Assembly: GCF_003755185.1 (NCBI RefSeq)
Contig: NZ_RKIC01000010.1
Coordinates: 248,001 to 312,000, forward strand
Source: Frigoribacterium sp. PhB24
Lineage (GTDB): Bacteria > Actinomycetota > Actinomycetes > Actinomycetales > Microbacteriaceae
Length of the DNA: 64,000 nucleotides
Reading direction: 5' to 3'
Shown here: one piece after another, positions 3,808-37,926 of the stretch
Layout: each line of letters starts with the position of its first letter
Numbering within the stretch: the stretch's first letter is position 1
Notes under the pieces: model-generated
Databases searched by the model: none
What the model was told of the DNA's origin: nothing
The model's input: only the letters and a program-made list of their open reading frames with translations
Program-made: the position numbers and the translations under genes

Positions 3808-4545
3808 CTAGAGGCCGGCCGTCGAGCGGATCCAGCTCGCGCTCTGCGACAGCACGGCGTAGTTCGACCCGGCCCGGGTGTTCGCGCCCGGGTCGGCCTC
3901 GTCACCGGTCGAGCAGACGGCCACGATCTGGCCGGCCACGATCAGTGGGCCACCTGAGTCACCGTGGTTCGCCGCACCGGTGGTGCCGTTCAGGTGCTGG
4001 GCGACCCCGCCGTAGGCGTCGGTGCTGCGGCCGGTGAGGCCGACCGTCGCCTGGTAGAGGCCGTCGGACTGCACCGAGTTGGCGCGCAGGCCGTAGCCCA
4101 TGATCGTGCCGCTGCCCGACGAGGTCGCCTGGAACCCGAGGTTCAGTGACGGGTAGCTGCCGAGCGCTTTCGACTGGCCGAGGTGCACGAGCGCGATGTC
4201 TCCCGACGGTGCCGCGGCGACACGGTCGACGGCGATCGCGGTGCCCGGGTTCGTCGTGCTGTTCGAGTGGTAGACCTGCATCGACGTGACGCCATCGATG
4301 CAGTGGCGGGCCGTCAAGACCCAGTTGGCGTTGATCTGCTCACCGGTGCAGGCGTAGCTCGCGGTGCCTCCGGTCTGGAAGACCAGCTGCACGGCCCATG
4401 GCGTCGTGGGTGCTTTCTGGCCGCCGACGACGTCAGTCGACCGGATGGTGTCGTCGGGGCCGGCGGCGACGGCCGGGGTCGAGACCCCGAGCGATCCGAC
4501 GGCGAGGGCCGCGGCGGTCAGGGCTGCGGCGACGAACTTCTTCAT
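3808..4545 (-). CDS. Secreted trypsin-fold serine protease (S1 family)
   Basis: 245 residues. It opens with a classical signal peptide (MKKF then a hydrophobic core, cut near AVA-A, residues 25-28). The catalytic triad is visible: His in TARHC, Asp in SGDIALVHL and Ser in GDSGGP. Cysteines flank the His loop (YACTG/ARHC), allowing the usual Cys42-Cys58 disulfide. The residue six before the catalytic Ser (chymotrypsin position 189) reads as Ala, not Asp, so cleavage after Lys/Arg is not expected. ATG 4545 is chosen because AAGGGG lies 6 bases upstream and the signal peptide begins there. Confidence 0.85.
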   Translation of the reverse strand: MKKFVAAALTAAALAVGSLGVSTPAVAAGPDDTIRSTDVVGGQKAPTTPWAVQLVFQTGGTASYACTGEQINANWVLTARHCIDGVTSMQVYHSNSTTNPGTAIAVDRVAAAPSGDIALVHLGQSKALGSYPSLNLGFQATSSGSGTIMGYGLRANSVQSDGLYQATVGLTGRSTDAYGGVAQHLNGTTGAANHGDSGGPLIVAGQIVAVCSTGDEADPGANTRAGSNYAVLSQSASWIRSTAGL

Positions 4546-31279: not shown

Positions 31280-31972
31280 ATGACCCCGCCGCGCCGCCCC
31301 ACGCCGTCCCGCCCCGCGACCCCGGGCGGCACCGACGTCCCGCGGCTCGACCCCGTCGACCCACAGGGGCTCGTCGACCTCGGCACCGACCTGCTGGGTC
31401 CGCGCGACAGCCGTGAGCTCGAGCGCTACGTCCGCGCCGACCTGACCGACCGCGACCTCGAGGGGGCCGAGTTCACCGAGTGCGTCTTCGAGTCGCCCCG
31501 GCTCGGGTCGGCCCGCCTGCGCGGCGCCCGGCTGGTCGAGTCGGTGCTGACCGACTCGTTCGCGCCCGAGCTCGCCGCGTCGCGAAGCACCTGGCGCGAC
31601 GTCCGCATCGAGCGGCCCCGGTGGGGGTCGGCCGAGCTGTTCGACGCCGAGCTGCGCTCGGTGCACCTGGTCGGCGGCAAGATCGACTTCCTCAACCTGC
31701 GGGGGGCTCGTCTCACCGACGTCGTGATCGAGGGCTGCACGATCGGCGAGCTCGACCTCGGCGGTGTGCAGGCCCTGCGGGTCGCGCTGGTCGACTGCCG
31801 CATCGGCACGCTCGACGTGGCCCGCGCCTCCTTGTCGCACACCGACCTCCGCACGAGCGACTTCTCGCGCATCGACGGCTTCGAGGGCCTGCGGGGCGCG
31901 ACGATCGACGAGCTGCAGCTCGCGACCTTCGCCCCGACGATGGCGGCCCACCTGGGGCTCGTCGTCGGCTGA
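31280..31972 (+). CDS. Pentapeptide-repeat-like protein
   Basis: 230 residues. From about residue 55 on, a five-residue periodicity is visible, with Leu/Phe at the centre (DLEGAEF, RLGSARLRGARL, LRGARLTDV, RASLSHTDLRTSDFS), forming a right-handed beta helix. Function in such families is varied and not known here. TAGCCT (31268-31273) is six bases before ATG, so it is probably leaderless. Its last 426 bases are duplicated at 37352-37777, flanking the acquired island; this left copy is the intact one. Confidence 0.75.
   Translation: MTPPRRPTPSRPATPGGTDVPRLDPVDPQGLVDLGTDLLGPRDSRELERYVRADLTDRDLEGAEFTECVFESPRLGSARLRGARLVESVLTDSFAPELAASRSTWRDVRIERPRWGSAELFDAELRSVHLVGGKIDFLNLRGARLTDVVIEGCTIGELDLGGVQALRVALVDCRIGTLDVARASLSHTDLRTSDFSRIDGFEGLRGATIDELQLATFAPTMAAHLGLVVG
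31547..31972 (+). repeat. Left copy of 426-bp direct repeat flanking the island
   Basis: These bases recur at 37352-37777 without any insertion or deletion. By hand I count 13 mismatches, about 97% identity, with most mismatches in the first 120 bases. The repeat ends exactly at the stop codon of the pentapeptide gene. Confidence 0.95.
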
Positions 31973-32113
31973 GGGCGGTTGCCGGGCTGCCGTTCCTCGT
32001 CGCCACGGGCGCGAACGACGAACATCGTCCGATGGGCGGTCGTTCATCGGGACACTTCTTCGGACCCGTTCCGCCGGCTGAGGTCACGTGGCGCCTGGCC
32101 TGCGGATTCGAGT

Positions 32114-32172
32114 ATGCCTGTCCCGCAAATGTGCTCGGTGAAAGGGGGGCGGGGTCTAGACGCGACAGGCAT
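32114..32172. repeat. Inverted repeat just upstream of the recombinase remnant
   Basis: ATGCCTGTC (32114-32122) and GACAGGCAT (32164-32172) are perfect reverse complements 41 bases apart, ending where the recombinase reading begins. It may be a leftover recombination (res-like) site or the element's end. Confidence 0.5.
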
Positions 32173-32708
32173 TCGGGCTCATCGGATGCGCCCAGATGTC
32201 GACCTCGCGACAGGCTCTCGCAGCACAGCGCGATGTTCTTGTAGCGCTCGGTGTTGACGATGAGCACGTGCATGTCAAACATGGCTTGTCGGGTACGACT
32301 TGAGCTAGGCCAGGCCTCCGCGAGGCCCTCGACGCGTGCCGTGCCGGCGACGTCCTCGTCGTCACGAAACTCGACTGTCTCGTCCGCGATCGCTGCGAGA
32401 TGCAACAGCGATCGCGGACGAGCTCACGGATGAGGCGTCGCGCTGAAACTCGGGGGAGCGGTCTACGACCCCACCGACCCGGTCGGCTCTTGTTCAACGT
32501 CCTCGGCAGTGTGGCCGAGTTCGAGGCCGACCTCATTCGTGCCCGGACCCTCGAGGGCATAGCTATCGCCAAGGCCGCCAGCAAGCTCCGAGGCCCGAAG
32601 CCCAAGCTCGCCGCCTCCCAGGACAAGCACCTCGTGCAGCTGCACCGCACCGGCACCCACACCACCAACGAGATCACTGAAATCTTCGCCGTCGCCCGCC
32701 ATCTCTGA
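32172..32708 (+). pseudogene. Decayed serine recombinase (resolvase/invertase type)
   Basis: In-frame from about 32175 the reading GLIGCAQMSTSRQALAAQRD matches the N-terminus of small serine recombinases (usual form YARVSTxxQ, with catalytic Ser in ST). It continues through LGVDDEHVHVKHGLSGTT, then a TGA at 32301-32303. The frame resumes as ARPGLREALDACRAGDVLVV. After a scrambled stretch at 32381-32420 and at least one frameshift, LLFNVLGSVAEFEADLIRAR appears in another frame and the protein stops at 32708 within its DNA-binding hairpin. No start codon is seen. It cannot be functional. Confidence 0.88.
32381..32420. repeat. 15-bp perfect inverted repeat inside the recombinase remnant
   Basis: CGTCCGCGATCGCTG (32381-32395) and its exact reverse complement (32406-32420) surround a 10-base loop. 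The right arm is the normal recombinase coding sequence (IADELTDE region). The left arm replaces the missing segment after LDCLV, suggesting an inverted templated copy. Confidence 0.85.
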
Positions 32709-33125
32709 CACGTGCCACTTGCCGTAGTCGCCATGGAGAAAGCGTCCGTAGAGCTGGGCCATCAAGAGCTCGTCATTCATGTAAATCTTCGAATTGTCAC
32801 CAAAAACGCTGCCGATACCGTCTTCCATGACGGCGACGTTCTTGACCATGAGGTCCCATTCTTCAGCTAGCTGCGCTTCGTCAGTGGTGCAGTCGCGTGC
32901 TGACCGGACAACCTGCGCCAGAAACAGCCGGTCGCCCGACTGAAAGTACTTACGGAGGAGTAAGGCGTGCATCACGACCCTCCAGCGGGCTTCCTCCTCG
33001 ACGTGCCCGAAAAGATTGACGGAGCGACCGATCGGCATGACCGCGTCTAGGCGTTCATAGTCTGCGACGGTCGAGAGGAAGTGTCGGACGCGGTCGCTTG
33101 CTGTCGGATGATCGCTGGACCCCAT
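32463..33125 (-). CDS. Unidentified protein whose 3' end runs into the recombinase remnant
   Basis: ATG 33125 has GAGAGGG 7 bases upstream. Residues 1 to about 138 (MGSSDHPTASDRVRHFLST... KWHVSEMAGD) look like a natural mostly helical protein, rich in charged residues, with no family I recognise. Beyond about 32708 the reading is simply the opposite strand of the decayed recombinase gene, so the original C-terminus has probably been lost and replaced. It may be inactive. Confidence 0.45.
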   Translation of the reverse strand: MGSSDHPTASDRVRHFLSTVADYERLDAVMPIGRSVNLFGHVEEEARWRVVMHALLLRKYFQSGDRLFLAQVVRSARDCTTDEAQLAEEWDLMVKNVAVMEDGIGSVFGDNSKIYMNDELLMAQLYGRFLHGDYGKWHVSEMAGDGEDFSDLVGGVGAGAVQLHEVLVLGGGELGLRASELAGGLGDSYALEGPGTNEVGLELGHTAEDVEQEPTGSVGS

Positions 33126-33651
33126 GCAGACACCCTCTCGTCTAGGTGATCCTTCGGTTAATGGCACAGCAACTCGGCACATGCCCTTGCGGTGGTCACT
33201 CAACGAGATCTGTTCCAAGCTGACCTATTGAGACATCTCGCGACCCGCAGGTACAAGAGAGTGACTGACCCGCGGGGTCGTTCGGTGACCGTTCGGCTAC
33301 CGCACCCCTTGGTCTCGGCAGCCCTGCTTACTGGGCTCGGGGATGAGGGCGTGATGCCGGTTCTATACTCCTGGTCGCGTTCGAGCATCTACCTCATCTG
33401 CCCGGAAGGCGATGCCGCGAAGTATCAACACCGCATGAGTCAAAGCATGGACTCCTTCAGCTTCAAGTGGGAAGCCGTTGTTTTGCCGGTAATCGGCTGC
33501 TCCATCGGGCAACACCTCGTATGTGTCGATCTCCGTAGTCGACGAGCCAGTCGCCGCACAGCCGAGGACGAACCCATCGGCTGTTCCACCATGGCCCTTC
33601 CGTGGAGTAGATGTAGGTCCTCACTCGCGTGGTCGCTCACAGCGACCGGGT
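33126..33651. other. Ambiguous stretch with competing short reading frames
   Basis: A rightward frame (33192-33737, 181 codons, first half GC-rich at third positions) and a leftward frame without a start codon (about 33620 down to a stop near 33367, containing FVLGCAATGSSTTEIDTYEV, which resembles a lipobox) overlap here. Neither has a ribosome site. This may be a broken gene at the end of the peptide operon. I cannot say which strand coded. Confidence 0.3.
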
Positions 33652-33655
33652 TCAT
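33440..33655 (-). CDS. Possible 71-residue protein at the end of the peptide operon
   Basis: ATG 33655 overlaps the M50 protease stop in the ATGA form seen between the other operon genes. The product is hydrophilic, with a basic stretch (RRLARRLRRSTHTRCC), and matches no family. A frameshift into the alternative frame described for 33126-33651 would make a longer protein with a lipobox-like motif, so this ORF may be the broken start of a larger gene such as an immunity protein (speculative). Confidence 0.3.
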   Translation of the reverse strand: MNPVAVSDHASEDLHLLHGRAMVEQPMGSSSAVRRLARRLRRSTHTRCCPMEQPITGKTTASHLKLKESML

Positions 33656-34428
33656 GGTGTCTTCGTCGAAGAATCTTCCTGCGCGGTCAAGGCGTCGCGG
33701 CCGTCTTGCGTTAGTGGAGTCAGGCCGAGGAGGTTGACTACAAGGAGTAGGCCGCCGACGGTGGCAAGGCTTGGCGATGAGGAGAAGATTACCGTCGTGA
33801 GGCCGGCTGTACTGGCCCCGGCGAGTGGGCCCGCAAGAGCGATCAGACGTTTATGGCCTCCCTTAGTTGCCGCGTAGGTCACCGCGCAGGTGCTCCAGCC
33901 GACGAGGAGAGCGCCGGATGCGCCTCCGAGGTAGCGACGAACTGCGATCCAGTGTCCGGTCTCGTGGGCTGCGATGACCAGGAGGACAAGGAGTGGGGCG
34001 GCGGCAAATTCGAGAGTTGTCGTCAAATCTGCGCCGAGGCTGGTCAGAGCGAGCGCTGCCAGGAGGCTGATGGTGGCTACGGCGGCGCCCCACGTGCGAG
34101 ACACACCGCGGAGGGCATGGGCCAGTAGCCACCGAGATCCGGGTGGTGCGAGGGTGCGGCGGAGTTTGCCCCATCGATGCACTTGGTGGCGCGTGGCAGT
34201 ATTTCGAACGTCAGCCCTGTCCATGACTCTCAGGCGCGTAGCGCAATCCGCGCGAGCGAGTCCGTTGATGAGCAGGAAGGCTGAGGCGACAGCCTCGAGC
34301 TCGTGCGGGGACTGGGCGTCTGAGGTGATTTGCTCGTCGGTTCCTGTCGCCGGGTCTGTGATGCGCGCTGTCCCTCCGGAAGATGACACACGCACTCCGT
34401 CGTGGAGTGTCACCGGTAGGTCGATCAT
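33652..34428 (-). CDS. M50-family intramembrane metalloprotease in the peptide operon
   Basis: 258 residues. The zinc motif HETGH is at 155-159 in a hydrophobic helix (VLLVIAAHETGHW). The second S2P motif reads NLLGLTPLTQDG (232-243), where Asp242 would be the third zinc ligand. Residues 1-105 form a soluble N-terminal domain, and four to five helices follow. Site-2 proteases cut within membrane helices; the one-helix peptide encoded at the operon's start is the obvious substrate. Its ATG overlaps the permease stop (ATGA). The arrangement recalls YydH of the B. subtilis yyd cluster. Confidence 0.8.
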   Translation of the reverse strand: MIDLPVTLHDGVRVSSSGGTARITDPATGTDEQITSDAQSPHELEAVASAFLLINGLARADCATRLRVMDRADVRNTATRHQVHRWGKLRRTLAPPGSRWLLAHALRGVSRTWGAAVATISLLAALALTSLGADLTTTLEFAAAPLLVLLVIAAHETGHWIAVRRYLGGASGALLVGWSTCAVTYAATKGGHKRLIALAGPLAGASTAGLTTVIFSSSPSLATVGGLLLVVNLLGLTPLTQDGRDALTAQEDSSTKTP

Positions 34429-35840
34429 GCGGTGATGGATCGGTTGCGTCGGATGCGCACCAACGCCGGAACGGCGACGGTCCAGATTGCTGCGGCTACC
34501 AGCAAAACGATCGTTCGAGCGGAATCGGTGGCGAAGGTGGAAGCGAGGGCCAGGGGTGCGATGGTCAGGGCGACGGCCTCGAGAAAGGCTATGACGGGGG
34601 CGCCGGGCATCTCCAGATCGGCCGGGAAGTGAACTCCCGCGAGGAGGCATGCAGCTGAAGCGAGCGCGGTGCAGGCAAGAACAGTTGTCCAGGGCACCGC
34701 GGCGAGGTGCCCGAGCGCGGCGCCTACTCCAGTGACTGCCAGGAGAAGCATCCCCGCCAGCATCGCGGTCGTGCCCAGTTTGATGACGCCCCACATGGCG
34801 GAGCTCTCACGTCGGATCGAGGTGCGTAGCCAGAGAGCCCGCCGATTCGTGCCGTAGGTGATGAGGCAGACCGACGACGGCACAGCCACCATCAGAAGGA
34901 ACATGACCGTTGCCCACGCTGGGGATGCCGGGGGGGTGACCAGAACTGTGGCTACAACGGCAATCCCCATCAAGGTCACCGTGGAGGCGAAAAGCGGGTT
35001 CCGCACGCTCTGCACGACGTCAGCAAGAGCGGAGCTGAGATGTGTTCGCGAGGGCGTCGGGAACCATCGCACGACTGCGGCGGCATGCTCGGGTGGCGCG
35101 AGCCGTCCGATGACACACAGCGCACTTGCTGCGGTCCCCAGAACAACCACAACCAACACCACTGCTGTCCATGATTTATTGGCAGCATCTGCCAGCGGGA
35201 GGGCGCTCACCCATTCTTCTCGGGACCACCTGGCGTACACGCCCGCTGAGGCGGCGAGGGCGACACCTGCGGAGATGCTGGTGGCGATCGTCCGGGGAAT
35301 TCCCAACCGGCAGAAAAGAGCTTCCGCTGCCTTGATTAGTGCAGCGAGGATGACGGTGCCGGCTGCAGAACCGAGGACCGCGCCCGCCACAAGAGCAGGG
35401 CCAAGTCGCGATCCGCTGAGGTGAACACTGGACGCAATCACAGGCGACATGACCAGAGGCGCAAACACTGTCGCGATCGCGATCGGAGTCGCAAGCTGGC
35501 CCAGCAACCAGCTCCCAGGTCGCAACGGTGTTGCGGCGAGCATCGGTGCGAGCTCGCGTGGCGCTGGGCTGAGAACGAGGAGGACTGTGATCGTGCATCC
35601 CGACGCGAGGGCCGTTCCGGCGATGATCTCACCCAGAATTTGCAGTTGGACTGGCTCTGGAATCGTTACCGAACCAGCGCCGGCGGTGAGGACGGCTATG
35701 ACTTGCCAGGCGATGACACCGACTGCGGTGACAGCGAGGAGCACCTGAGAGAGGGTGCGTGAGCCGGTGACGCTTCGAGAGAGGTCACCGAACCAGATGC
35801 CACAGATCAATCGGGCGACGCCCAGCGAATCGCGAATCAC
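34425..35840 (-). CDS. ABC transporter permease, multi-pass membrane protein
   Basis: 471 residues with about 12 hydrophobic segments and short loops. It has no signal peptide. The amphipathic N-terminus (RLICGIWFGDLSRSVTGSR) precedes the first helix. No family motif is clear, but position beside an ABC ATPase and the two-halves arrangement (helix groups 30-270 and 300-465) fit an ABC-2 type or YydJ-like exporter permease. It shares four bases with both neighbours. Export of, or immunity to, the peptide is an inference. Confidence 0.7.
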   Translation of the reverse strand: MIRDSLGVARLICGIWFGDLSRSVTGSRTLSQVLLAVTAVGVIAWQVIAVLTAGAGSVTIPEPVQLQILGEIIAGTALASGCTITVLLVLSPAPRELAPMLAATPLRPGSWLLGQLATPIAIATVFAPLVMSPVIASSVHLSGSRLGPALVAGAVLGSAAGTVILAALIKAAEALFCRLGIPRTIATSISAGVALAASAGVYARWSREEWVSALPLADAANKSWTAVVLVVVVLGTAASALCVIGRLAPPEHAAAVVRWFPTPSRTHLSSALADVVQSVRNPLFASTVTLMGIAVVATVLVTPPASPAWATVMFLLMVAVPSSVCLITYGTNRRALWLRTSIRRESSAMWGVIKLGTTAMLAGMLLLAVTGVGAALGHLAAVPWTTVLACTALASAACLLAGVHFPADLEMPGAPVIAFLEAVALTIAPLALASTFATDSARTIVLLVAAAIWTVAVPALVRIRRNRSITA

Positions 35841-36139
35841 AGCTGGTCGAGCTGCCTCGTGTTGATGCGTCGGCGCGCATGCATCCGGAAAGCCATCAAG
35901 CTCGCCGCGGTGAATCCGGCAGTGATGGTCACGAACCAGATGGCGCTGCCGGGGGAGATGAATTGGGTCGACGCAAGGTCGGCACCGTCACCGGCGGTAG
36001 CGGTGACGAGACCGGGGACACCCGCTGTCGAGTTCGTCGCCACAGCGAGAGCCGTAACGGCCATGGCGGAGACAACGACGATGAAAGCCGCAGCGATAGC
36101 CGAGCCAAAGACGGTGAGAGTGATACGGAGTGCGGTCAT
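35837..36139 (-). CDS. Small two-helix membrane protein
   Basis: 100 residues: a hydrophobic helix at about 5-35, an outer loop of about 30 residues (rich in Thr, Ala, Gly, Asp), a second helix at about 67-87 and a basic tail RMHARRR. It may be a transporter accessory subunit or an immunity protein. No family is recognised. It lies 8 bases after the ATPase stop and overlaps the permease start by four bases. Confidence 0.65.
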   Translation of the reverse strand: MTALRITLTVFGSAIAAAFIVVVSAMAVTALAVATNSTAGVPGLVTATAGDGADLASTQFISPGSAIWFVTITAGFTAASLMAFRMHARRRINTRQLDQL

Positions 36140-36147
36140 AGTGTGAG

Positions 36148-36921
36148 TTACCTTTCAGCGCGAATGAGATCTCTGAATCGCTGCGTGTCCCGAGTCGGAG
36201 CGTGGAGTCCAGTTGTCGTGAGGAAGAACTCCTCGAGGTCAGGCATGCCCGAATTGCGAACGAGCTCGCTGGGGGACCCATCCGCCACGCTGATTCCGTC
36301 GTGCATGATCACGACGCGCTCGAACCAGTGCTCCGCGGCGAGGATGTCGTGGGTGGCGACGAGTACCGCTGTTCCTTCCGCTCGGAGCGCATCGATAAAT
36401 GCCCGAATGGTTCGCACCGCGTGCGGGTCGAGGCCCCGGAAGGGTTCGTCCATAACAAGGAGGCCAGGTGAATGGGCCGCAGCGCCCACAACTTGAAGCT
36501 TCTTTTTAGTGCCGTGAGACATGTCAGCGATGAACTTGGACAAATGCGGCTCGAGTCCCAAGGCGTCGATCAAGGCATCGTCAAGCCCGGAGCGGCCGAC
36601 CCGCCGGAGTCGTCGGAGGTGAGCCAGGTACTCCGCCCCGGTCAGCGAGAGGGGGATCGGGAGTTCGTCTGGGACAAACCCCAGATCCTTCTTCGCTTCG
36701 GCCGTCTGATGCGGGTTGCCTTGGATGAAGACCGTTCCCGCATCGAACTGGTGAAGGCCGACGATGCCATGAACGAGAGTTGACTTACCGCTCCCATTCG
36801 GGCCGAGGAGGGCCAGGAGATCCCCGGGGTCGACCGTGAGGTCGACCCCGAAGACTCCGGCGCCGCCTGCGTAGCGCTTCGTGCACTGTTGCGCAGAGAG
36901 CGCAGGACCGGTGCGAGACAT
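36148..36921 (-). CDS. ABC transporter ATPase of the peptide operon
   Basis: 257 residues. Walker A GPNGSGKST is at 40-48, the signature is a degenerate MSHGTKKK at 134-141 (normally LSGGQ), Walker B LLVMDEP is at 154-160 and the switch His at 191. The degenerate signature is typical of ATPases in ABC-2 exporters for peptides and lantibiotic immunity. It starts two bases after the peptide gene's stop, so both are translated together. Confidence 0.9.
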   Translation of the reverse strand: MSRTGPALSAQQCTKRYAGGAGVFGVDLTVDPGDLLALLGPNGSGKSTLVHGIVGLHQFDAGTVFIQGNPHQTAEAKKDLGFVPDELPIPLSLTGAEYLAHLRRLRRVGRSGLDDALIDALGLEPHLSKFIADMSHGTKKKLQVVGAAAHSPGLLVMDEPFRGLDPHAVRTIRAFIDALRAEGTAVLVATHDILAAEHWFERVVIMHDGISVADGSPSELVRNSGMPDLEEFFLTTTGLHAPTRDTQRFRDLIRAER

Positions 36922-36923
36922 CG

Positions 36924-37187
36924 TTACCTGATGCAGGCGAACTTGACGTTTGCCGAGGCGGGGTTGTTCCAGTTGACGTTGATGACGCCGCCGAACCCCC
37001 GGTACCCCCTTCCGAGGCAGATGCCCGTGAGGTAGGCGATGAAACCGAGACCGAGCACGATGGCGGCCGCGACGGCGACCACGATGACCGGGTTGCGGCT
37101 CGTGGCGACCCGATGCACCACGGCGTCGCGTACCTGTGCGGCGGCGACAGTGGCGCGCACCGGTGCCTCGAGAAGAATGTTCGACAT
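36924..37187 (-). CDS. Candidate peptide precursor, 87 aa, one helix and two cysteines
   Basis: ATG 37187 follows AAGGAG with a 6-base spacer; an upstream ATG at 37220 region (MSKENY) is weaker. The product has a polar N-terminus (MSNILLEAPVRATVAAAQ), a hydrophobic helix at 33-53, and a 34-residue C-terminal part with Cys57 and Cys85, many Gly and Asn, and an aromatic/cationic pattern (CLGRGYRGFGG ... FACIR). It resembles precursors of membrane-active peptides cut near or in the helix, with a possible disulfide as in SDP. No lanthipeptide or radical-SAM enzyme is nearby. First gene of the operon. Confidence 0.65.
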   Translation of the reverse strand: MSNILLEAPVRATVAAAQVRDAVVHRVATSRNPVIVVAVAAAIVLGLGFIAYLTGICLGRGYRGFGGVINVNWNNPASANVKFACIR

Positions 37188-37351
37188 GTAGTTCTCCTTG
37201 CTCATCTTCGAACCGCCCGTCTGGACGTCAGTGAAGGCTACATAACGCAGAATACTAAACACAACGGCAATGCAGTGATGCTCCACACATCGGGCCAGAT
37301 GCATGCCCGGTTCTCTAGCGGTCTTGAGGGCCGGATGGGTGCGTCGCGGAC

Positions 37352-37777
37352 CTGACCGACTCGTTCGCGCCCGAGCTCGCCGCGTCGCCCAGCACCTGGC
37401 GAGACGTGCGGGTCGAGCGGCCGCGGTGGGGCTCGGCCGAGTTGTTCGACGCCGAGCTGCGGTCGGTGCACCTGGTCGGCGGCAAGATCGACTTCCTCAA
37501 CCTGCGGGGGGCTCGTCTCACCGACGTCGTGATCGAGGGCTGCACGATCGGCGAGCTCGACCTCGGCGGCGTGCAGGCCCTGCGGGTCGCGCTGGTCGAC
37601 TGCCGCATCGGCACGCTCGACGTGACCCGCGCCTCCTTGTCGCACACCGACCTCCGCACGAGCGACTTCTCGCGCATCGACGGCTTCGAGGGCCTGCGGG
37701 GCGCGACGATCGACGAGCTGCAGCTCGCGACCTTCGCCCCGACGATGGCCGCCCACCTGGGGCTCGTCGTCGGCTGA
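37352..37777 (+). pseudogene. Truncated second copy of the pentapeptide-repeat gene
   Basis: This is the right copy of the 426-bp direct repeat; it encodes the last 141 residues of the 31280 protein. A TGA lies a few codons before the homology starts, so the natural N-terminus is gone. A new protein could start at the ATG-like codon 37406, but no ribosome site is seen. The mismatches are mostly silent, meaning this piece was under selection elsewhere before it arrived or diverged. Confidence 0.85.
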
Positions 37778-37823
37778 GCCGTGCCGTGCCGGCGGGTGGG
37801 AACCGCAGCACGGGGTGGGCCTT

Positions 37824-37926
37824 GCGCCACGATGTGGGCACCGCGCCACGAGGCGGGCACAGCACCACGATGTGGGCACAGCGCCACGATGTGGGCACAG
37901 CGCCACGATGTGGGCACAGCGCCACG
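37824..37926. repeat. 19-bp tandem repeat, 5.4 copies
   Basis: The unit GCGCCACGATGTGGGCACA is repeated five times (the first two copies degenerate) plus a partial sixth. Each unit contains CCAC and GTGG, so a structured RNA could form. There are no spacers, which rules out CRISPR. It lies between the truncated pentapeptide copy and the riboflavin operon; the region 37778-38040 holds no gene. Confidence 0.9.

Follow-up and report, generated by a model that had tools for sequence, protein, structure and literature searches.

The window analysed here is a stretch of 64,000 nucleotides from Frigoribacterium sp. PhB24 (contig NZ_RKIC01000010.1). Five leftward genes, read from the minus strand from 37187 down to 33652, encode a precursor peptide, the ATPase of an ATP-binding cassette (ABC) transporter, a two-helix protein, a large permease and a site-2 protease (S2P)-type protease. 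Lettered after the genes of the TMcins, a class of membrane-spanning antibacterial peptides published in 2025 (PMC12328743, PMC13252029), their order on that strand is A-B-E-C-P. Two junctions are gaps of 2 and 8 bases, and the remaining joins are 4-base overlaps. The five genes are read here as a diverged actinobacterial TMcin biosynthetic cluster, with a probability of about 0.85. The features are:

36924-37187, minus strand: TmcA-like precursor, 87 residues, with a putative leader at about 1-32, a predicted helix at 33-59 and a loop from Cys57 to Cys85
36148-36921, minus strand: TmcB-like ABC ATPase, PF00005 at 72 bits
35837-36139, minus strand: TmcE-like two-helix membrane protein, by position and topology a candidate escort or protease partner
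34425-35840, minus strand: TmcC-like ABC permease, GTG start at 35840, with a profile link to the Bacillus-type permease
33652-34428, minus strand: TmcP-like S2P-clan protease, 258 residues, ATG at 34428, with HETGH at 155-159 and a distal Asp242 (counted from the ATG)
33440-33655, minus strand: ORF71, 71 residues, probably not a gene, without a family or a homologue in other loci

An earlier note on this DNA had described six packed leftward open reading frames (ORFs). The positions, gaps and overlaps stand, but the sixth, ORF71, probably lies outside the cassette: since it has no family and its best tblastn match in the other loci compared reaches only E 0.5, it is unsupported as a part of it. 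The precursor gene has an AAGGAG ribosome-binding site six bases ahead of its ATG at 37187, and the one-helix peptide with Cys57 and Cys85 is read directly from the DNA, with one hydrophobic segment in a simple hydropathy scan. The scan gives two segments for the two-helix protein, as the note had it, and four for the protease. The permease is large, as claimed, but its segments overlap in the scan and the number of helices is not fixed at the claimed 12. The ATPase is recognised by the Pfam ABC_tran model; its signature SHGTKKK, which the note called degenerate, is normal for the subfamily (SHG[MT][KR][RK]K in 5 of 5). No Pfam or NCBIfam family matched the precursor, the two-helix protein, the permease or ORF71 above cut-off, and a PADLOC scan of five proteins gave no match. 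The single NCBIfam match of the window precursor was sub-threshold, at 15 bits against a cut-off of 499. Matches of precursors to FocB, mediterrocin and CtaJ were rejected: all score far below cut-off, apparently through chance resemblance between helices.

As described in the two papers, the core operon of the class is tmcA/B/C/E/P, in which TmcB is an ATPase, TmcC a 12-helix permease, TmcE a two-helix escort and TmcP, the fourth ORF, an S2P-clan protease with H68EYMH, D158 and PF11667 (PMC13252029, PMC12328743). TMcin-G1905 is encoded by a 297-bp gene, and its 45-residue leader is removed while the transmembrane helix is retained in the product (PMC13252029). In the product Cys25 is joined to Cys50, and pore formation in membranes is reported, as is a confident ternary complex of TmcA, TmcE and TmcP. 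The structure is a helix followed by a C-terminal two-stranded antiparallel sheet; of the two universally conserved cysteines, the first is at the outer helix end and the second near the C-terminus, and two Trp flanking the helix are called highly conserved, not universal. The authors' PSI-BLAST found homologues in Bacillota and Actinomycetota in three gene arrangements, and the cassettes described here may be among them (PMC13252029, PMC12328743). Because the same gene set is already published as the TMcin class, the cassette is not the undescribed system that the earlier note took it for.

The gene set recurs. Among 299 genomes of the family, the whole cassette was found in the window's genome and in three others (G105, G180 and G228). 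A weak precursor match in G105 led to a second cassette, L023, which has all five parts in unchanged order and identities to the window of 35% in the precursor (both Cys kept), 39% in the ATPase, 25% in the permease and 29% in the protease. A profile made from these two ATPases scores that of the window at 486 bits, other cassette ATPases at 221-240 and paralogues at no more than 177. Over the 299 genomes, five places reach at least 220 bits, the top two being those that built the profile, and the score then drops to 177; at the fifth place, in G042, a two-helix protein, ATPase and permease are present and no precursor or protease was seen. Like L023, L069 and L070 have the whole cassette in the same order, as do L073, L075-L081, L083, L088, L091 and L097 by profile matches.

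When named genomes were scanned with the middle region of the ATPase, at least 487 relatives came up, of which the best 80, from Actinomycetota and Bacillota, were taken as loci. A precursor was found at 36 of the 80, a protease at 36 and both at 34, on the ATPase strand with E up to 0.01. Of the 36 precursor loci, 21 supplied rows to the profiles and so match by construction, and 15 are independent, although L118 among these is apparently the same contig as the profile contributor L177. Earlier profiles, made from the window and the G-numbered genomes only, found a precursor at 19 and a protease at 27 of the 40 loci L073-L112 with E up to 0.05. Around paralogous ATPases, neither a precursor nor a protease was matched (0/25 loci) in stretches of 1.5 kb on each side, which cover the precursor position and are too short for the protease. 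The recurrence of the order in other genera, together with this 0/25, indicates that the cassette is more than a chance grouping. Among these best 80 of at least 487, the closest relative is L091 from Microbacteriaceae bacterium PS02332 (identity 47-49% in the precursor, 39% in the two-helix protein, 37% in the protease and 34% in the permease), and precursor and ATPase occur in Curtobacterium, Arthrobacter, Microbacterium, Leifsonia, Sinomonas, Homoserinibacter, Micropruina and others. The earlier note had asked whether small one-helix, two-Cys peptides recur beside M50 and ABC genes in other actinobacteria, and they do. Its reading of the locus as a peptide system with an ABC exporter and an intramembrane protease is supported: the set recurs as a unit and matches the TMcin core operon.

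Some loci are incomplete: L074 has no protease match, L082 starts within the ATPase at a contig end, and L071 has no precursor or protease. Two further loci, in Kocuria (L085:4253-8012) and Serinicoccus (L086:4223-6549), have another order, with precursor, two-helix-like ORF, protease, ATPase and, in L085, permease; their two-helix and precursor matches are weak. Single-sequence searches returned little. The protease found no relative in 136 contig stretches and none in plasmids, and in the 299 family genomes it found the window and two weak matches (1e-4 and 9e-4) with no cassette around them by blast. The permease found the window and two weak matches in 297 genomes, followed up by blast only, and none in plasmids. 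The precursor found none in plasmids; among genomes it matched 120 of 199 at E up to 1, taken as nearly all noise, of which G105 held the cassette, while ORF lists around the matches in G341 and G314 showed no cassette. With E limited to 0.1, the two-helix protein matched 127 of 299 genomes, for the most part noise. An Enterococcus precursor and protease found nothing in plasmids. The ATPase found five plasmid records, one of them Peribacillus: plasmid pG25-68 of Peribacillus muralis (L153:4695-7408) carries a TMcin-like precursor, ATPase and permease, and by eye only a PqqD-like protease start remains there (no Pfam match), with a recombinase fragment at 4041-4283, also by eye.

Operons close to the published one were found with precursor profile A8, which was made from six Bacillota precursors and, run over 299 genomes of the class, matches 10 with an E of 0.001 or lower. 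It finds L176-L178 with E from 2e-15 to 2e-13. L176 and L177 have the order B-C-E-P-A, as published for TMcin, and L178 has C-E-P-A, with the ATPase side beyond the listed stretch. Their proteases are 171-177 residues long, with HEYxH from His68 in all three and Asp157 in L176, and score 30.7, 25.3 and 42.6 bits with PF11667 (cut-off 27.1). These three operons form the G1905-type set. In L176 (6405-7042, genome G676) two nearly identical TmcA-like precursor genes stand in tandem after tmcP, and the permease frame is interrupted.

Profile comparisons link three of the window's proteins to such operons. The E-values refer to single comparisons, and five pairs were controlled with 100 profiles whose columns were shuffled in blocks of 12, plus one reversed. 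The actinobacterial precursor profile matches 10 Bacillota precursors, including those of G1905-type operons, at 87.8% (E 3.4e-6), and six Bacillota precursors alone at 82.7% (E 9.4e-6); in the control 0 of 100 shuffles did as well. For the protease, the actinobacterial profile matches the Bacillus type at 96.8% (E 3e-10) and the G1905 type at 72.2% (E 3.3e-5), the two Bacillota types match each other at E 1.2e-11, and in two pairs no shuffle of 100 was as good (best 21.0 against a real 35.6, and 19.5 against 74.9). The window protease profile also matches three proteases that have PF11667 matches, two of them above cut-off. The actinobacterial permease aligns with the Bacillus type over 445 columns at 95.8% (E 6.9e-9), where the best of 100 shuffles reached 20.2 against the real 75.4 and none was as good, and the Bacillus type matches the G1905 type at E 3.8e-7. 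Because the Bacillus type links both, the window-type permease is tied to the G1905 type. The two-helix protein fits TmcE in size, topology and place in the operon, and can be aligned across 11 chosen actinobacterial cassettes. A lone relative of it, in genome G201 (L037:6240-7054), is convergent with an SdpI-family gene (PF13630, 46 bits) with no cassette in the ORF list; the two are possibly a self-protection pair.

The S2P assignment of the protease, made in the earlier note from HETGH and DG ligands, agrees with the profiles and with a structure model. Calculations were made on 33655-34425 with the start Met omitted; in that numbering His154, Glu155, His158 and Asp241 are invariant in 15 aligned proteases, an alignment that left out L080, L085, L086, L090, L023, L069 and L070. 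The AlphaFold2 model (mean predicted local distance difference test, pLDDT, 81) resembles SpoIVFB (Z 10.1, root-mean-square deviation 3.1, 141 aligned) and mjS2P, 3b4r (Z 10.0, deviation 3.4, 145 aligned), with RseP at Z 8.2 and the first unrelated row at 7.3. The Pfam M50 model gives 10 bits (cut-off 27.2). In a Microbacterium metagenome-assembled genome (L080:8280-9053) the protease reads HELGL instead of HExxH, with the second His gone, and the rest of the cassette matches; this copy is either decayed or carries a sequencing error.

In the precursors, the pair corresponding to Cys57 and Cys85 is kept in 22/22 actinobacterial and 10/10 Bacillota sequences listed, and in all rows of two alignments (20/20 and 21/21). 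AlphaFold2, run on the window precursor with 20 relatives, predicts helices at 14-29 and 33-59 and strands at 64-71 and 79-86. The shared set of five parts, the invariant Cys pair, the profile links of precursor, protease and, by way of the Bacillus type, permease to operons with the published layout, and this predicted helix-hairpin are the grounds for the TMcin assignment.

Several observations weigh against it. The sequence of TMcin-G1905 itself lies outside the comparison, for which the operons of the G1905-type set stand in. Compared directly, the actinobacterial and G1905-type permease profiles give 0.5%, which is not significant. The two-helix proteins of Actinomycetota and Bacillota show no sequence homology by profile, 2 of 100 shuffles reaching the real score, and neither do those of the two Bacillota types, Bacillus and G1905. 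The margin of the precursor score over the best shuffle is narrow (34.1 against 30.6). The window protease has no PF11667 match at E up to 1. A Z of about 10, as its model gives, can also arise between unrelated helical bundles, and in a search by Foldseek only, 3b4r comes first with an E of 0.1. The predicted precursor has a mean pLDDT of only 70, with strands at about 71-77, and a Foldseek search of the model against the Protein Data Bank found nothing alike. Finally, the window and L091 precursors have no Trp at either end of the helix, where two flanking Trp are a TMcin trait. Counted in fixed stretches ahead of the first Cys, an N-side Trp is present in 9/22 actinobacterial and 10/10 Bacillota precursors, and a C-side Trp in 17/22 and 9/10.

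The earlier note had proposed that the protease cuts within the helix and releases a soluble, disulfide-bonded peptide of 30-35 residues that serves as an antimicrobial or a signal. S2P proteases commonly cleave inside a helix, and Cys57 and Cys85 do bracket the C-terminal part of the precursor. Inspected by eye in 32 listed precursors, however, the segment ahead of the first Cys stays hydrophobic, which fits a product that includes it, and TMcin-G1905, the member studied in the two papers, keeps its helix (PMC13252029). A cut within the helix seems unlikely. By analogy with TMcin-G1905, which loses a 45-residue leader and keeps its helix, the window product is likely a peptide of about 55 residues that includes the helix. 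Its calculated mass with one disulfide would be 5.36-6.03 kDa for starts between residues 36 and 30, and 5672.1 Da (monoisotopic) for a start at Pro33, which lies 24 residues ahead of Cys57.

If the TMcin assignment is right, the precursor would sit in the membrane of the producing cell, its N terminus facing inward. The disulfide between Cys57 and Cys85 would form outside the cell and pin the two-stranded loop beside the helix. The S2P-type protease, aided by the two-helix protein, may then cut off the leader close to where the helix meets the cytoplasm, at about residue 33 on the model of TMcin-G1905, and the ABC transporter would pull the product of about 55 residues, helix included, out of the membrane and release it. 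The released peptide would then enter the membranes of Gram-positive competitors and make pores there, for which TMcin-G1905 is the precedent in print. Antimicrobial activity is our best guess for the window peptide.

The cassette lies in a genomic island:

31974-37351: island carrying the cassette, 5.4 kb, GC content 0.51-0.66 in the pieces measured against 0.72-0.74 in the flanks
31280-31972: full pentapeptide-repeat gene, ahead of the island
32400-32708, plus strand: serine recombinase remnant, PF00239 at 27.5 bits (cut-off 23.3), profile positions 109-143 only
37352-37778, plus strand: 427-bp, 97% copy of the 3' end of the pentapeptide-repeat gene, at the far end of the island

The island is absent from the same place in 7/7 congeners compared (L155-L161), in which the chromosome is continuous from the pentapeptide-repeat gene to the DNA beyond. 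The pentapeptide-repeat gene itself is present once in each of the 15 other genomes of the genus (E up to 1e-20). Between the duplicate and the next genes, at 37815-37920, short direct repeats of about 19-20 bases, CACATCGTGGCGCTGTGCC-like, were seen by eye.

TMcin-like machinery could also have been turned to a product used for signalling or kin recognition instead of killing. Precursor loops are strongly divergent between clades. The window and L091 precursors, besides lacking the Trp, space their two Cys by 28, a distance that ranges over 22-29 among the other 20 actinobacterial precursors; of the 10 from Bacillota, nine have 24-25 and one, L103, is scored as 28 because of an extra Cys. The island proteins scanned included no recognisable receptor or regulator, however, and carriage on an island that congeners lack would be more usual for bacteriocins. 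A signalling role is therefore improbable.

The N-termini of the proteases differ between lineages. The window protease has about 85 extra N-terminal residues, an additional domain modelled as four strands followed by helices (pLDDT 44-81). Homology of this region to PqqD was rejected (hhalign 0.3%, no PqqD match at E up to 1). Three Bacillota proteases (L096:7887-8843, L103:4490-5392 and L175:8826-9740) do have an N-terminal PqqD domain above the Pfam cut-off, at 26.9, 25.4 and 37.3 bits (cut-off 23.4), which suggests that leader recognition is built into the protease; PqqD goes without mention in the main text of PMC13252029 and PMC12328743. Tentatively, TMcin proteases might carry lineage-specific leader-recognition domains, namely a PqqD domain of the RRE type (recognition element of ribosomally synthesised and post-translationally modified peptides, RiPPs) in Bacillota and another small domain at the N terminus of many actinobacterial ones, with leader capture built into the protease, and the window and L091 branch, with no flanking Trp and a longer loop, might form a distinct pore or act on other target membranes.

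The TMcin class is recent, and the work in PMC12328743 and PMC13252029 concerns a single staphylococcal strain. The cassettes described here add a broad range of actinobacterial members, diverse in sequence, across which the shape of the pore, the recognition of the leader and the self-protection of the producer are open to comparison. Family names easily miss such cassettes: 0 of the scanned precursors or permeases are above a Pfam or NCBIfam cut-off.

Other systems combine a small peptide with such genes. The yydFGHIJ epipeptide cluster of Bacillus subtilis, to which the earlier note compared the locus, has a small peptide, an M50 protease and an ABC transporter; its product is not known to be a transmembrane peptide and its precursor is unrelated to the window's. 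The likeness is a loose analogy, and the note was right that the radical S-adenosylmethionine (SAM) enzyme of epipeptides is missing, none being found among the cassette and island proteins scanned. Daptide clusters have an M50-type intramembrane metalloprotease and ABC genes, and NF041824, a model of the daptide protease, gives 34 bits against its cut-off of 300 with a Bacillota relative of the window protease, a point in favour of placing the cassette in one of these other M50-containing RiPP classes. The window precursor lacks the terminal Thr that is a trait of daptide precursors, though, and NF041824 does not match the window protease itself even with E allowed up to 1. No radical SAM enzyme, dehydrogenase, decarboxylase, aminotransferase or methyltransferase, and none of the daptide modifying enzymes, was seen among the cassette proteins scanned. 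Membership in either class is very improbable.

The Bacillota TMcin-like clusters (L087, L092, L093, L095, L096, L098, L099, L101-L103 and L153) are closer, with precursor, permease and protease homologous by profile to those of the window. They differ in gene order, which by eye is A-B-C-P-E or P-A-B-C-E, and in the PqqD domain of the three proteases tested (L096, L103, L175), where none is recognised in the window protease.

The TMcin-G1905 cluster of Staphylococcus aureus has TmcA, B, C, E and P and also TmcD. The window cassette differs from it in gene order and has no tmcD, a gene that is absent from non-staphylococcal clusters too (PMC13252029). Its precursor has no Trp at the helix ends and a Cys spacing of 28 rather than 25, and its protease has the extra N-terminal domain of about 85 residues. 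In common, the two have a one-helix precursor with two Cys on its C-terminal side, an S2P-clan protease with HExxH and a distal Asp, an ATPase with a large permease, and a two-helix protein as partner or candidate partner, all in one packed operon.

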